DNA of 64,000 bases. It comes from Heliocidaris erythrogramma. Lineage: Eukaryota > Echinodermata > Echinoidea > Camarodonta > Echinometridae. Made by a program: the position numbers and the translations under genes. Below the pieces are notes generated by a model that did not search any database, was not told where the DNA came from, and was given only the letters and a program-made list of their open reading frames with translations. Within the stretch, counting starts at the first letter, position 1; each line of letters opens with the position of its first letter. The stretch is from positions 29,841,927 to 29,905,926 of the forward strand of contig CM046870.1 of NCBI GenBank assembly GCA_025617745.1, written 5' to 3'. Below are positions 25,170-59,860 of the stretch, one piece after another.

Positions 25170-25530
25170 AACTGCTACTGTGCATTATGACTACTACTAC
25201 AACTACCATACTAATACTAAAATACCACTAGTACTACTACTAGTACTACATGTACTACTACTACTACTACTACTACTGCTACTACTACTACTACATGTAC
25301 TACTTCTACCACTACTTCTATAACTACTACTACTACTATTACTACTACTACTTCTATTACTATTACTACTGCTATTACTACTACTACTATTATTACTTCT
25401 ATAATTACGACTATTACTACTACTACTTCTATTACTACTACTACTATTACTACTACTACTACTACTACTTCTATAATTATTACTATAACTATTACTACTA
25501 CTACTATACAACAACTGCTACTGTGCATTA

Positions 25531-28409: not shown

Positions 28410-28916
28410 CTATTTGTTAGTAATGTGAACCTGACAATTATGGAAGTGGTATTGAATCTGGTTCACCGATGTATTTTCACTTCCTTGAGCTTGGCTGAGC
28501 ATGTTCGAATTTGAGCTTATATTGAAGCTTGAAGATGAAGACAAGGTGCCACCAATGGCACTAGGAGTAGGACTAGTACCAGTACTAGCACTCGTAGTAG
28601 GAACAGGACTAGTACTAGCACTAGTACTAGTAGTAGGAGTAGGACTCGGAGTAGGAATCACTTGGCACAGTTGAGTTGTGTTCTTTGTGTAGTCCGTTCC
28701 ATCCGCTTTTCTGATGCCTGCATAGGAATGGCTCAACAGCGTATCTAACTCACGTTGCGTGATGGTGGATAGGTCCGTGCGACTGAGTTTAGCGAAACTT
28801 TCAAGCTTTGAAAATTTCACTGCTCTTTTCGTACTGTTGGAATCCTTCCCATTCAGTAGATCGTCGAGTTCTTCCTCCGTGAGAAGTGCAAAACTGAGAT
28901 TCGAAGATACAGCCAT
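28410..28916 (-). CDS. Crypton-like protein lacking the catalytic region (168 aa)
   Basis: The open frame extends upstream to 29081, but the likely start is the Met at 28916 (MAVSSNLSFALLTEEELDDL), giving 168 aa. Residues of about 11-85 resemble the N-terminal core-binding part of Crypton tyrosine recombinases: LLNGKDSNSTKRAVKF recalls the family's KDSKNTKR motif, and YAGIRKADGTDYTKNT its Y-A-x-x-R-K-x-D-G-T block. A Ser/Thr/Pro-rich stretch follows (PTPSPTPTTSTSASTSP), encoded by a low-complexity AGT/AGC repeat. The end, QIQYHFHNCQVHITNK, resembles C-terminal tails I associate with such proteins. The catalytic Arg and Tyr region is missing, so the protein could not recombine DNA. It is probably an internally deleted Crypton copy or a derived short gene. 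It lies beside the tail of the LINE, on the same strand. The family call rests on motif memory only. Confidence 0.55.
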   Translation of the reverse strand: MAVSSNLSFALLTEEELDDLLNGKDSNSTKRAVKFSKLESFAKLSRTDLSTITQRELDTLLSHSYAGIRKADGTDYTKNTTQLCQVIPTPSPTPTTSTSASTSPVPTTSASTGTSPTPSAIGGTLSSSSSFNISSNSNMLSQAQGSENTSVNQIQYHFHNCQVHITNK

Positions 28917-29084
28917 TTTTGACACGCTTCTATCGTCAAAAATTAAACTTAAACTTTCATTTTCGGTACTGAACTTCACCGATCCGACCGCGGTAGCGCT
29001 ACAGCTGTAATTTTGTTGATTTGTTGATTTGTTGACATAAGCGACGATCGATAGCGTATACGGCATAGCGTGTAAAAACATATA

Positions 29085-29135
29085 GCAAAATAATAATAAT
29101 AATAATCACAGCATTTATAATGCGCCATCGATCTA
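29085..29135 (-). repeat. LINE 3' tail, GCGC...(ATT)n
   Basis: Minus strand: GATGGCGCATTATAAATGCT, GTG, then ATTATTATTATTATTATT. The same GCGC - AT-rich spacer - (ATT)n layout ends the SINEs at 18765, 33069 and 63518. This tail is the likely recognition site of the LINE RT. Confidence 0.75.
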
Positions 29136-29315
29136 GTATGAATATTTAGAGGCGCAGAGGGATAAAGAAGTTAAAGGATTAAAGGAGGATAGAGACTTAA
29201 GATATGATAATGTATAAGTATATAAGTGCAAGTAATTATCTAACAAATTTTCACATAAATATGATGAAAATAAGTAGGATTTAAGACACTTTTTAAATGG
29301 TTCAACCGATTCTGC

Positions 29316-30680
29316 TCATCGGATCCTCAGTGGAAGAGCATTCCAAAGTGATGGAGCTGAAAAAGAAAAAGCATTTTCTCCCAGAGTTGAATTTGTCCTT
29401 TGAACCTTTAGCTGATTACTACTAGATGAACGCAAATTTCTTCCAGGAACATATTTTGAGACAAGGCTTTGCAGGTATAGGGGAGATTGACCATGCATTG
29501 ATTTCCATGTGAGGAGTAAAATTTTAAATTCTATTATTTTGGTTACCGGTAGCCAGTGGAGATTTTTGAGAATTGGTGTTATATGAGAGAAACGAGATGC
29601 TCCACTGAGGGCCCGAGCAGCAGAAATTTGAACACGTTGCAGCTTGGCAAGTTGATGAGATGTAGTTTTAAAAAGTAAGGCATTTCCATTATCAATTCGA
29701 GATATTACATACGAATGAATTACAGATGCTGCAACTTTAGATGGCAGAGATTTCCTAATACTATGAATGCTTCGCAATTGCAAATATATGGATCTACATG
29801 TAGCAGTAATATGTGATGACATTGACAGCTCATTGTCAAAACGAATTCCAAGATTTCTACAACTGGACAAAGATTGTACTTCAGCACATCCTTTACGTAT
29901 AGACTGACTACGGACCTTAGCACCAAGGTTTCTGGAGGCAATAATCATAAATTCAGTCTTATCATCGTTCAATTTTAGTTTGTTCTTTACCATCCACTTC
30001 CTCATGTCATCAATGCAAGATTCAACTTTATGTTTAGAAGAGGCCTCGCATAAAGGGTCAGCAGGATCGAATGGCATGTATAGCTGGGTGTCATCAGCAT
30101 AGAGATGTATATTGATGCCATGTGATCTTGCAATTTTGGCAAGAGGGCTGGCATAAAGACTGAAGAATGACGGACCCAGAACGGATCCCTGTGGCACGCA
30201 GTATGGAAGCTCAGCTACCGATGACAAGGAATCATCAATCTTCACAATCTGCGAGCGGTTGCTCAGATACGAAGAAATCCAAGCTAGAGCAGATCCAGTC
30301 AAGCCTATCGAGCCAAACCTTCTGATCAGAATATCCTTGTCGATGGTGTCAAAGGCTGCGGACATGTCAAGTAACACCAAGAAGACAGCCTGCTTCTGGT
30401 CAAGGGCTTGAGTGATATCATTGTGAACCTTGATAAGAGCAGATTCGGTGCTATGATCCTTATTATAAGCTGACTGAAGGGGTTCACAAAGAACATTCAG
30501 TTCCAGATAATCTTGAAGACGCTGGGCTACGACTCGTTCCAATACCTTTGAGACGAACTTCAGGTTTGACACTGGCCGGTAGTTCTTTAGGATATCCGGG
30601 TCAAGCCTTGGCTTCTTCAAAAGAGGACGAACAACTGAATGAGTCAGGAAAAATGCCTGTTTCCAATGACATATTGACAA
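29316..30680 (-). CDS. LINE ORF, 3' part: reverse transcriptase (454 aa)
   Basis: Holds almost the whole RT of a CR1/L2-type LINE. Motifs: VVRPLLKKPRLDPDILKNYR (17-36), NYRPVSNL (33-40), the palm Asp D105 in LLDMSAAFDTID, VPQGSVLGP (162-170), and YADD (194-197), the active-site pair. Then DKTEFMIIASR, the thumb, and the C-terminal block PILKNLHWLPV ... SLWNALPLRIR. Both catalytic blocks are present, so this half looks chemically intact. The first residues before about 15 are out-of-frame read-in rather than true N-terminus. The ORF stops at 29316 about 20-25 codons short of the expected end. The downstream text is in the same frame, so this stop is a point change. Confidence 0.9.
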   Translation of the reverse strand: MSICHWKQAFFLTHSVVRPLLKKPRLDPDILKNYRPVSNLKFVSKVLERVVAQRLQDYLELNVLCEPLQSAYNKDHSTESALIKVHNDITQALDQKQAVFLVLLDMSAAFDTIDKDILIRRFGSIGLTGSALAWISSYLSNRSQIVKIDDSLSSVAELPYCVPQGSVLGPSFFSLYASPLAKIARSHGINIHLYADDTQLYMPFDPADPLCEASSKHKVESCIDDMRKWMVKNKLKLNDDKTEFMIIASRNLGAKVRSQSIRKGCAEVQSLSSCRNLGIRFDNELSMSSHITATCRSIYLQLRSIHSIRKSLPSKVAASVIHSYVISRIDNGNALLFKTTSHQLAKLQRVQISAARALSGASRFSHITPILKNLHWLPVTKIIEFKILLLTWKSMHGQSPLYLQSLVSKYVPGRNLRSSSSNQLKVQRTNSTLGENAFSFSAPSLWNALPLRIR

Positions 30681-31040
30681 TAAATATTGTACTTGGCAGA
30701 ATAAGATCTAAATGTTTTTTTCAGAATCCATGTGGGAACTGAATCGTGTGAGCTCGAAGTGGATGGAGAACTTTTTATAATCCTCTTCGCTGCATCCTCA
30801 GATGCCAAGTCGAAGGTGTCAAGCACTTGGTCTTTCCCAGCAGAATGTTCGGTAACTAAATCTGTGCCAGATACCACTTCCAGCTTCTAGTCCTTCTCGA
30901 ATGTCCTTTATCTTTTTGGAAAAGTATAGGCAAAACTTCTCCGCAAGGACTTGGTCACAGCGGTGTGTAGGAAGCATAGATTTCACACAATTATGAAGCA
31001 TCTTGTTTATGACTCTGTACACTTCCCTTGACCACAGCAC
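30644..31040 (-). pseudogene. LINE linker region in shifted frames
   Basis: Two short frames (31040-30819, then 30877-30644) carry the stretch between endonuclease and RT: KEFCLYFSKKIKDIRE-type text written here as AEKFCLYFSKKIKDIREGL, then SSSHDSVPTWILKK, a conserved pre-RT motif of CR1-like elements. The switches from one frame to the next show small indels in the original single ORF. Confidence 0.75.
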
Positions 31041-32491
31041 TCAGAGATCAACTTCTCATAATAAGAGGCCTTTGCATGCTTTATCATGTTCCACGCAACC
31101 TGGCGTTGAGTTTTGAAGCACTGCCTATCAACTTCAAGTTTGGTATTTCGCCACTTTTTTTCTAACCTCCTCCTAAGCTTCTTTACCTCTGTGATCTCTT
31201 CTGAATACCAAGGATTTGGCGAGTGTAAGGAAACAACACCATGCTTATCCAGAATATCTGAAAGAGTTCTCTCGTACTGATCTGTCAGCTTGTTGATGTC
31301 AGTCTCTGGTTCCTGAAACAGATCAGATGACTCCAGGTCTTTAGCAAAGGCATCGTGATCAATTGCCTTCAGTTTCCGATACACTATTTCTTTACGACCT
31401 AATGCTGGCTTGAAGATATTAAGGTCACAGTGTACCGCTGCATGATCACTAAGGAAGGAAGAGACCTCTACGGACTTGACAATATCCTCATAATTTCTAG
31501 ATAAGATGTAGTCCAAAATGTACCCACTTGTATGTGTACAGTCACGTACATTTTGAAGAAGGTCATAAGTCTTCATCATCTCAGAAAAGTTCTTGGTATC
31601 AACATTCGCCTGATCATCCCAGTGAATATTGAAATCATCAACTATCATCAGCTTAGGGGGAAAAGTTGATAAGACAGACAAGTAATCAGCAAAGTCCCGA
31701 AGAAACATTGATGTCGTTGTTCTATTCCTTGGACTGTATGGTGGCCTGTAGATTACTACCAATTTAACAGAGACCGAGGAGCTACTGTCAGGCATAATAT
31801 CACAGCACATACTTTCAAAGCTGACAAAAGTTTGAGACGAGGATGTAACCAGATTTAGTGAATCTCGATGAATAACAGCAATCCCTCCTCCTGTTCGATT
31901 CAAACGTGGAGTGTGCTGGAACTTAAATCCTGGAAGTGTCAGATCAGCAATAACTTTACTTTTTTTTTCTCCATTTGACAACCAAGTCTCTGTTAAACAC
32001 ACAACATCAAAGTCATGTTCAATAAAGTAGTCAGTCAGAAGATCAGCCTTATTACCAACAGACTGTGTGTTAATAAGGCAAAGCTTGCAAGTCTTCTTCC
32101 GGTCACCTAGGAAGATCGATCTTTCGCAAGTTGATACGGACTTAAGCTCAACTGGAAGGGAATTCCCGTTATTCCCTTTCCTCTTTCTCTTGACACCTCC
32201 TCTGGTCCCTCTCACTGTGGGACTCTTTACATTGATACCAAGAGACTTCACGTTGGCCCAAACATCAGATAACATGTAGCCATCGTGATCAAGGTCGAGG
32301 AGGGCTGCTCTACTGTAACGTATTCTTTGCAGAGTTCCCAACTCATCATTCCTCTCACATTTCGACCCATCTTTGTTTATTGGGCCAGGGTTTGCCTCAA
32401 TATCTCCTGCTACCGATAGTAATACATTAAATGTTGCAGTAGAATTGATGTAGTAGTAGATTCTCTTAAGGAGATTGACTGGATGGGACAA
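31007..32491 (-). CDS. LINE ORF, 5' part: 2A-like leader and AP endonuclease (494 aa)
   Basis: Residues 1-37 are a hydrophobic leader (IYYYINSTATFNVLLSV) ending AGDIEANPGP, which matches the 2A ribosome-skipping consensus D-(V/I)-E-x-N-P-G-P (32407-32381). 2A motifs at this place are known in sea urchin CR1-like LINEs. A basic linker follows (KRKRK, residues 101-105). The exonuclease-endonuclease-phosphatase fold runs from about 137 to 360, with N141 (LINTQSVGNK), E168 (CLTETWL), D286/N288 (VDDFNIH) and S348-D349-H350 (FLSDHAAV). This nuclease nicks the target site so that reverse transcription can be primed. Residues beyond 370 are the linker to the RT. The frame is lost near 31020, where the next coding block is in another frame, so a complete protein is not made. 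Confidence 0.85.
   Translation of the reverse strand: MSHPVNLLKRIYYYINSTATFNVLLSVAGDIEANPGPINKDGSKCERNDELGTLQRIRYSRAALLDLDHDGYMLSDVWANVKSLGINVKSPTVRGTRGGVKRKRKGNNGNSLPVELKSVSTCERSIFLGDRKKTCKLCLINTQSVGNKADLLTDYFIEHDFDVVCLTETWLSNGEKKSKVIADLTLPGFKFQHTPRLNRTGGGIAVIHRDSLNLVTSSSQTFVSFESMCCDIMPDSSSSVSVKLVVIYRPPYSPRNRTTTSMFLRDFADYLSVLSTFPPKLMIVDDFNIHWDDQANVDTKNFSEMMKTYDLLQNVRDCTHTSGYILDYILSRNYEDIVKSVEVSSFLSDHAAVHCDLNIFKPALGRKEIVYRKLKAIDHDAFAKDLESSDLFQEPETDINKLTDQYERTLSDILDKHGVVSLHSPNPWYSEEITEVKKLRRRLEKKWRNTKLEVDRQCFKTQRQVAWNMIKHAKASYYEKLISECCGQGKCTES
32381..32407 (-). other. 2A-like ribosome-skipping motif in the LINE ORF
   Basis: The codons read G-D-I-E-A-N-P-G-P, identical to the core 2A consensus. 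In known 2A peptides the ribosome skips the bond between Gly and the final Pro, releasing the upstream 36 aa and continuing translation. The preceding residues are hydrophobic, as in sea urchin 2A leaders reported to act also as signal sequences. Function here is inferred. Confidence 0.8.
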
Positions 32492-33068
32492 TCCTCGATG
32501 AAAGGACTACACAATAAGAGGAGGTGCAATATAGTGAGGAATCCCATTGTCTATCCAATGAAGAATACGACGACAATCAAAGCACTGCTTCCACTATTGT
32601 TGGTCCAACTCTTTACAACAATGCAGACTAGAAGAAACGAGCACGGTGTACATGACTGTGCAACACCAAGTATGGCTCCTTCCAGCTATAACAGTCCAAG
32701 TTAAAGGTGAAAAATAGGACCAAGGAATAAATGATGATGTACGATGAACCAGAGTTCAAACTTTGTCCAGCAGAATCTAAAATGTAAAACTGCTATGCTG
32801 GTAAAGTTTAAAACACAAACAGAAAAGAATATTCCATTCAAAAATGAAATTAGAAGAGACAGGTTCCAGAGCTGCTCCTCCCTTGAAGAGCGCTAAGGTA
32901 AACAAAAAAAATTAAAAAATCGATTCGTATCGTCTGCGCTACATAAATGTTTACATGTTTATGTTTCCATGTGCAACAGTCCCCTTTACCGTATGTTATC
33001 ACTTTTTTGCACAGTCACGTGGTGTTATTTGACCAATCAGGATGGCTACATTCTTGAACCCGTTTTAT

Positions 33069-58589: not shown

Positions 58590-59860
58590 ATAATATGAGC
58601 GTCCTCACGAACTCTTTCTGTCGGCACAAAACAGGGTCAGTGAGCTGAATGTATGTGGGTTCGAGCATGGGCAGATGTGTAAAGTTTCTCGCTCGGCTAA
58701 GAATTTTAAACCAAGATGAAGAGTATTATTCAGCGCACTCTTGATTGTTAAGTAATAAGTGGTGAGCGATCACAGAATTGGCATTGTCTGCCGCGATGCG
58801 CACATTTGTTTGTCTAAACGAGCGCGGGGGTTGTGACCGCGCGCTAGCCTGGCGATTCCGAATAGAGGAAGGTACGTGCTGCTTTACGCGATCTGCTAGT
58901 CTTTGAGTCGTACGCCCTATGTACCGAGCTTCACATCGGCACTTGAATTCGTAAATAACATTGGAAATCTGCGTGATAGGGAGTACATCTTTTCGGACCG
59001 ACGAGATGATTCTGTGTGTGGTAAATACCACGCGAGGCTCCACGGTAGGGAAAGCGCTACATACGGCTTGCTTGACCTGTTTCTCAAACTTTTGGGATGC
59101 TTTCCCTCGCCACGGCAGTTTGAGATAGACAGGACATTTGTTTGGTCCAAAGTCCGGTGTCTTTGTCGGTTTGTTCAGTTTCCGCGTAACGTGGCATTCG
59201 ATAACATGGTCAGAATAGCCATTTTCGCGCAGAATATCCTTGACACGATCGATCTCTGCTTTGAGTTTGCACGGAGAGCAGATTCTCAGTGCTCTATCGA
59301 TTAGGATATTGATAAGACTTGTACTGACCTGTGAATGTAGGTTTCAGATAGACGGAAGTAGTGAAGCCGTGCGCTGACTTTTCTACCAGTACGTCAAGAA
59401 ACGGAAGTGCGCCATCATGTTCAATCTGAATTGTACATACGCGGATTCTGCAAAGGTGAATGAATACTTAATGGCAAAATCAGACACTTCACACAAAGAG
59501 CGGGCTGAAGTACTTTGCTAAGCCATTTGGCCAATTCATGTTGCGCCGAATTAGTCATTGAACCACTTTATGCCAAGAATATAAAGAGGCAGAAAGTTTG
59601 GAGTTCAGATCATTTTCTGAATCCAAATCCTTAAGTTCAATCCCCGATGGAGAGTTTAAAGAGCTTTCGCCTTTCTAAAGGTCAACATCTACCAGTCTCC
59701 ATCTCCAACGGTTCCAGAATCAATTCGTCTTTGGAGAATATTTTACAAACATCCTTCAAGTTTTGTATAAGGGGAGGCTGGTATGTTACTCTAGAAAGAT
59801 TCATAGCTTATCGCACAAAGTGGTAGAGAAAATTCGTTACTAATGCATCGAAGTTGAATG
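58590..59860 (-). mobile_element. Penelope-like element remnant with GIY-YIG domain
   Basis: On the minus strand, pieces of a Penelope-like retroelement lie in the right order: late RT text (ELAKWLSKVLQPAL near 59540; LPFLDVLVEKSAHGFTTSV near 59400), the connector before the endonuclease (VEPRVVFTTHRI), then the GIY-YIG nuclease (YEFKCRCEARYIGRTTQRL near 58950), and a C-terminal tail (PVLCRQKEFVRTL near 58610). Penelope-like elements use this nuclease to open the target. The copy is broken in several places and lacks the early RT, so it is a fossil; the upstream border near 59.86 kb is uncertain. Confidence 0.8.

Follow-up and report, generated by a model that had tools for sequence, protein, structure and literature searches.

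A 2A-bearing LINE in Heliocidaris erythrogramma and its relatives with signal-peptide-like leaders and varied 2A cores

Odon and co-workers reportedly described, in 2013, 2A sequences in APE-type non-LTR retrotransposons, lying upstream of the AP endonuclease and reverse transcriptase (RT) in one long frame. 2A sequences are known in non-LTR retrotransposons and in NLRs (PMC11512398), and 2A-bearing non-LTR retrotransposons are known from sea urchin, with LINE 2As described as internal (PMC4981915). In cellular genes, StopGo is described as rare, and an L-rich upstream context ending in A/S/C-G before D12 marks a known StopGo class (PMC12846837). The S. purpuratus SpNLR2A, a leader of NLRs, spans 26 aa with overlapping signal and 2A, and its dual targeting was shown with reporters (PMC4981915). 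When a signal was placed ahead of 2A in yeast, the upstream product went to the ER and the downstream product was cytosolic; signal sequences inhibited 2A in some contexts, and longer 2A stretches insulated it (PMC2978324).

The window, by which we mean the whole 64-kb stretch of DNA that was analysed, contains a LINE copy with the following features:

29089..32812, minus strand: body of the LINE copy, ~3.7 kb; the 5' limit is the start of similarity to L003 and L004, the 3' limit is the (ATT)n tail
32381..32407, minus strand: 2A core GDIEANPGP, read in frame 32506-31007
31442..32056, minus strand: AP endonuclease domain (Pfam PF03372, Exo_endo_phos), residues 151-355 of frame 32506-31007, E 5.5e-11
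30644..30886, minus strand: out-of-frame piece in the interval from endonuclease to RT; the frame is broken and there is no Pfam match
29847..30608, minus strand: RT domain (PF00078), residues 34-287 of frame 30707-29316, E 1.3e-31

The body was taken as about 3.7 kb because the similarity of L003 and L004 to the window sequence starts at 32812 and the 3' end, ..GGCGCATTATAAATGC.. followed by the (ATT)n tail, lies within 29133-29089 (the tail itself at 29109-29089). The stop-to-stop frame 32506-31007 (minus strand, 499 aa) opens with SFHRGLSHPVNLLKRIYYYINSTATFNVLLSVAGDIEANPGPINKDG... and runs through GDIEANPGP on into the AP endonuclease. The core fits the StopGo pattern (D/G/C/N)(V/I)ExNPGP, and NPGP was found nowhere else in the window in any of the six frames. 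The sequence-only reading had placed this core ahead of an AP endonuclease, and the core at 32407-32381 (minus strand) with its PF03372 match (E 5.5e-11) bears this out. Two marks of an APE-type LINE, an AP endonuclease and an RT downstream on the same strand, are present. The RT matched five PDB sequences, four of LINE-1 ORF2 and one of another RT, the best being a LINE-1 ORF2 protein (E 1.3e-6). The RT sits in a different frame (30707-29316) and the piece at 30886-30644 is out of frame, so the copy is broken, as the sequence-only reading had also said. It belongs to a known kind of element, the 2A-bearing APE-type LINE, and is an unremarkable dead copy.

At least 16 DNA matches of the window family were found in its own genome, at 95-97% copy identity, and the family seems, from these matches, to be low-copy. 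Copies lie in neighbouring pairs (C18:29.37/29.87 Mb, C18:20.96/21.43 Mb and C4:20.18/20.29 Mb); both C18 pairs share 5' flanks, as if the family had partly spread by segmental duplication. Three other stretches of the window were also observed. A 231-aa frame with no Pfam match lies just 3' of the LINE (28411-29105, minus strand). A weak GIY-YIG match, below the Pfam cut-off (58727-59343, minus strand, E 0.00037), is perhaps another retroelement piece. A repetitive tract with Ser-rich and Thr-rich frames lies at 24598-25323, in a 4-kb bin with a GC skew of -0.149.

The leader of the window copy was then compared with four sisters, L002, L003, L004 and L006, in an alignment of five copies. The features concerned are:

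32488..32547, minus strand: signal-peptide-like N-terminus MGFLTILHLLLLCSPFIEDC, with residues identical in the window copy and L002
32410..32547, minus strand: leader ORF of 45 aa, with its ATG at 32547, frameshifted before the 2A and stopping at 32410
32467..32468, minus strand: site of a 49-nt segment missing here but carried by L002, L003, L004 and L006
32381..32467, minus strand: conserved 2A block KRIYYYINSTATFNVLLSVAGDIEANPGP, common to other families in the 18-family comparison given below

The 49 nt, directly before the 2A, are present in all four sisters and absent from the window copy. Because they are missing, the frame from the ATG at 32547 runs into the stop at 32410 without reaching the 2A, and the first 13 residues of frame 32506-31007, SFHRGLSHPVNLL, are out of frame relative to the sisters. 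Frame 32506-31007 has no Met upstream of the 2A. The claim that the protein opens with a hydrophobic leader therefore fails for this copy, and the alignment gap rules out the leader as the true N-terminus of the window protein. The motif had also been called intact in an otherwise broken element; its letters are indeed intact, but the 2A is out of reach in frame from the ATG. In L002-L004, the same ATG follows ACA and starts a leader of 72 aa, MGFLTILHLLLLCSPFIEDC..., that runs through GDIEANPGP. The L002 start context is TAG-ACA-ATG-G, and its best hydrophobic 11-mer starts at residue 3. The upstream DNA of L006 differs beyond the shared part, and no Met was found there. All five aligned copies have the same DNA over the 2A core. 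Selection on the 2A of the window copy was considered and dropped, since copies at 95-97% identity offer too few differing sites to demonstrate it.

A protein search of the same genome, in which 86 of 5,119 first-look candidates were scored, yielded 93 matches; the families described here are therefore a sample. A number of the protein matches lie in open frames of 1,091-1,163 aa. Among 39 short stretches retrieved over the leaders of relatives, 31 carry NPGP (L094 and L107 with cut leaders), L074 carries HPGP and the copy L086 NLGP; no leader could be recognised in five (L079, L088, L089, L092 and L106), and L100 was off target and uninformative. Intact relatives without the motif had been named as what would speak against a real 2A. 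On this partial test, the motif itself is widely present, as NPGP in 31 of 39 stretches, but its canonical glutamate is absent in 14 of 18 families.

The leaders of the relatives share an architecture of a Met, a signal-peptide-like stretch, a conserved block of ~30 aa and the 2A. It was examined in 26 Met-containing leaders drawn from the full set of loci, some of which had been found through the 2A motif itself. They are 58-122 aa long (median 77), with a purine at -3 of the start in 21 of 26. In 25 of the 26, the most hydrophobic 11-mer begins no later than residue 20; position alone would predict 8.4 such leaders (nominal p 1e-11, for families that are related). Shuffling individual leaders gave p <0.05 in 18; eight, including the window family (L002, p 0.096, not significant alone), missed this level, so the case for a signal peptide rests on the group. 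The shuffle test of L074 (p 0.47) began at an upstream Met.

Instead of an ER signal, the hydrophobic stretch might be a membrane anchor, or might belong to a longer nascent-chain context that serves StopGo. Full FMDV activity requires more than 30 aa of native sequence (PMC12846837), which together with the eight of 26 leaders that miss p 0.05 in the shuffle test lends this alternative some weight. In 24 of the 26 leaders, however, at least 45 residues separate the end of the best hydrophobic 11-mer from the core (37 in L025 and 2 in L010, whose most hydrophobic segment adjoins the 2A), so the stretch should lie beyond the ribosomal tunnel at the time of skipping. The spacer between stretch and core also varies in length and sequence. 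We therefore regard this alternative as unlikely. The reading of the stretch as an ER signal, separated from the endonuclease-RT by the 2A as the sequence-only reading had proposed, is supported at the level of the family by L002-L004 and by the position of the stretch in 25 of 26 leaders, and does not hold for the frameshifted window copy.

The same distinction bears on a simpler view, in which the window match is nothing but leftover sequence of a dead element, without meaning. The frameshifted leader and the broken RT frame fit this for the window copy but not for the family, since relatives with long open frames share the arrangement; as an account of the motif, we consider it improbable. 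In addition, a PHD finger (PF00628) follows the 2A in L009 and falls just below the Pfam cut-off in L011; PHD-like fingers were observed right behind the 2A in the LINE families L009, L010, L011, L014 and L021, those of L010, L014 and L021 by eye.

We compared the 2A cores of 18 families, entered by endonuclease homology with one row each and located by the pattern G/S-D-[VIM]-x-x-[NH]-P-G-P. Duplicates, partial leaders (e.g. L048, L049, L094 and L107), the NLGP copy L086, and L079, L088, L089, L092, L106 and L100 were left out of this table. The comparison was ungapped, and two of the 18 rows (L077 and L096) are shifted by indels upstream. Position 14 holds E in four families, S in four, H in four, Q in two, N in two, D in one and K in one, so that the canonical E is found in 4 of 18 and a different residue in 14 of 18. 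G11, D12, P17, G18 and P19 are invariant in 18/18, with 2-4 synonymous codons each; all four Gly codons and all four Pro codons are used at these positions. N16 is kept in 17 families, with H in L074, and A, S or C at position 10 with G at position 11 precedes D12 in 17 of 18, as in the L-rich StopGo class (PMC12846837). Upstream, Y at -5 (16/18), N at -2 (15/18), F at 3 (15/18) and L at 7 (16/18) are conserved, also among the 14 non-E families alone. Open frames of 1,123-1,163 aa were found in families with each of D, Q, S, H, N and K at position 14. Mere decay was rejected as an account of the non-E cores, with position 14 confined to a polar set and the flanking core positions invariant.

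The changes at position 14 were placed on an endonuclease tree of 23 of 28 rows over about 200 aa, in which L010 is a long branch and the outer rows are weakly similar; L009, L017 and L021 matched too short to be included and L025 and L029 were unmatched. On this tree, position 14 changed at least nine times, and at least three changes were between E and non-E. A crude one-step codon model gives p about 3e-4 for all nine changes falling inside the set E, D, N, Q, H, S and K. Within the D family, five copies lie 2-9 nt from L046 over 1,186 nt, which suggests, from the copies compared, that this family was recently active; its other copies are more diverged or rearranged. L046 and L057 have the same leader; the core reads GDIDLNPGP in several near-identical full frames but GDIELNPGP in L057, which may reflect a recent change between D and E. 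L074 (C15:40722077-40722977) has the core GDIHPHPGP, with H at both positions 14 and 16; in viruses, H at either position is active alone (PMC12846837).

A census of cores was performed over the genome (1,064 Mb, 26 contigs). The pattern D-[VIM]-E-x-N-P-G-P gave 398 sites and its reversed-pattern control none, so the GDIEANPGP core is not a chance match. The wider pattern G-D-[VIM]-x-x-N-P-G-P gave 671 sites (control 1), which are copies and not independent events and include sites in host genes. Position 14 is E at 357 of them, N, K, H or Q at 220, S by AGY codons at 51 and D at 35. A, G or V is found at 1, TCN-Ser or P, T, L, F, I or M at 2 (control 1), and the remaining 5 have R, C, W, Y or a stop. 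The polar set E, D, N, K, H, Q and AGY-Ser thus accounts for 663 of 671 sites, its codons being 14 of 61, and 314 sites have no E. Genome-wide, Ser at position 14 is encoded by AGY at 51 sites and by TCN at 2 at most, as if one step from Asn (AAY). Among the first 100 listed sites, 34 lie inside C2 arrays, all with E, and were excluded; the other 66 are E30, N13, S10, H7, Q3, D2 and K1.

On C2, cores cluster at 39.7-40.9, 54.2-58.1 and 63.9-65.3 Mb. All nine loci examined in the first cluster (L030-L038) are short frames ending in the 2A, followed by a splice-donor-like gtagg or gtaag, and six of them (L030-L033, L035 and L036) resemble SpNLR2A6, GFCxLYLxxILLMRxGD[VI]ETNPGP, with small changes. 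Judged from the 2A leaders, this cluster is probably a set of tandem NLR genes.

The non-E families might have lost skipping, the motif being a fossil or a ribosome pause and the endonuclease-RT being fused to the leader or started downstream. Consistent with this, E at position 14 is almost exclusive in viral StopGo (PMC12846837), and one natural viral sequence, MDNPNPGP, had no activity (PMC2885027). However, a fossil should lose G-D and P-G-P too, and both are invariant in all 14 non-E families while synonymous codons vary. Position 14 also stays in one polar set (A, G or V at 1 of 671 sites; TCN-Ser, P, T, L, F, I or M at 2 of 671). Moreover, GDVHPNPGP is the 2A-like motif of two yadokariviruses (PMC10817634), and H at position 14 is >95% active, with E14Q at 56% or 26% (PMC12846837); the sections of that paper considered here do not name S, N, K or D at this position as active. 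We hold a loss of skipping to be doubtful, and the non-E cores are best read, from their pattern of conservation, as StopGo sequences that would still work, perhaps with altered efficiency.

Some of these nonapeptides are known elsewhere. GDVHPNPGP occurs in two LINE families at six loci (L081, L082, L083, L099, L102 and L104), where it lies in a LINE leader, whereas that of the yadokariviruses lies in a viral polyprotein (PMC10817634). GDVQSNPGP of the LINE family L071 is the same nonapeptide as the Molecular Rheostat mutant F2A(3), which is engineered and has a different upstream context (PMC3508920). In that system, mutant 2As deliberately set the balance between membrane-bound and secreted product (PMC3508920). 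Among the papers listed for the strings HPNPGP, SPNPGP, NPNPGP, KSNPGP and QSNPGP, three contain one of them (PMC3508920, PMC2885027 and PMC10817634), and none of these three is on LINEs.

From the architecture and constraint described above, we infer signal function, skipping and targeting in the relatives, which probably carry a signal leader followed by StopGo, with the position-14 variants still working. Translation of a relative that encodes endonuclease and RT in one long frame would start at the Met, followed by the signal peptide. By the time the ribosome reached the 2A (residue 58-122), the signal would already have emerged from the exit tunnel, and SRP and the translocon would be able to engage it. 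At the ~30-aa block and 2A core, the ribosome would then skip the Gly-Pro bond, as expected from the core, its surroundings and what has been published on comparable sequences. The leader would go to the ER, and the endonuclease-RT would be a separate, signal-free protein starting with Pro and able to reach the nucleus; the 2A would therefore exclude the enzyme from the secretory pathway. Across sister families, position 14 has shifted between E and other residues (D, N, Q, H, S or K), with most other core positions held.

This arrangement resembles SpNLR2A in joining an N-terminal signal function to a 2A. The SpNLR2A leader has 26 aa, with signal and 2A overlapping, and belongs to NLRs (PMC4981915), whereas the leaders described here have 58-122 aa, keep the two separate and precede a LINE endonuclease-RT; the window-family sisters L002-L004 have a 72-aa leader. 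With the signal at least 45 residues ahead of the core in most LINE leaders, SRP could bind before skipping, which would not be possible in the same way for a 26-aa leader.

The arrangement is also like that of APE-type non-LTR retrotransposons with 2A, in which a single long frame carries the 2A and, after it, the AP endonuclease and RT. Here, the signal-like segment lies far from the 2A and position 14 is not E in 14 of 18 families. A more speculative possibility is that position 14 acts as a natural dial, which lineages would reset repeatedly, each residue of the set (E, D, N, Q, H, S or K) giving its own skipping rate. With a signal peptide ahead of the 2A, the skipping rate would set how the endonuclease-RT is divided between the cytosol and loss to the ER. 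This would be a self-limiting control of transposition by ribosome skipping, and the families would form a natural library of StopGo variants that fall outside the accepted motif.

2A sequences in LINEs are known; the signal-peptide leaders and the diversity at position 14 look new, as far as the literature listings show. Among the matches listed, judged by title and abstract opening, no paper deals with a LINE 2A with a signal peptide. StopGo is defined by a motif in which glutamate is treated as nearly fixed, and the 314 non-E sites of 671 would escape searches that insist on E. In the families examined closely, the non-E cores have a conserved context and long open frames. If these cores are active, the motif would be wider than its definition, the sea urchin families would offer ready-made graded variants, and skipping would be tied to protein targeting in a mobile element.
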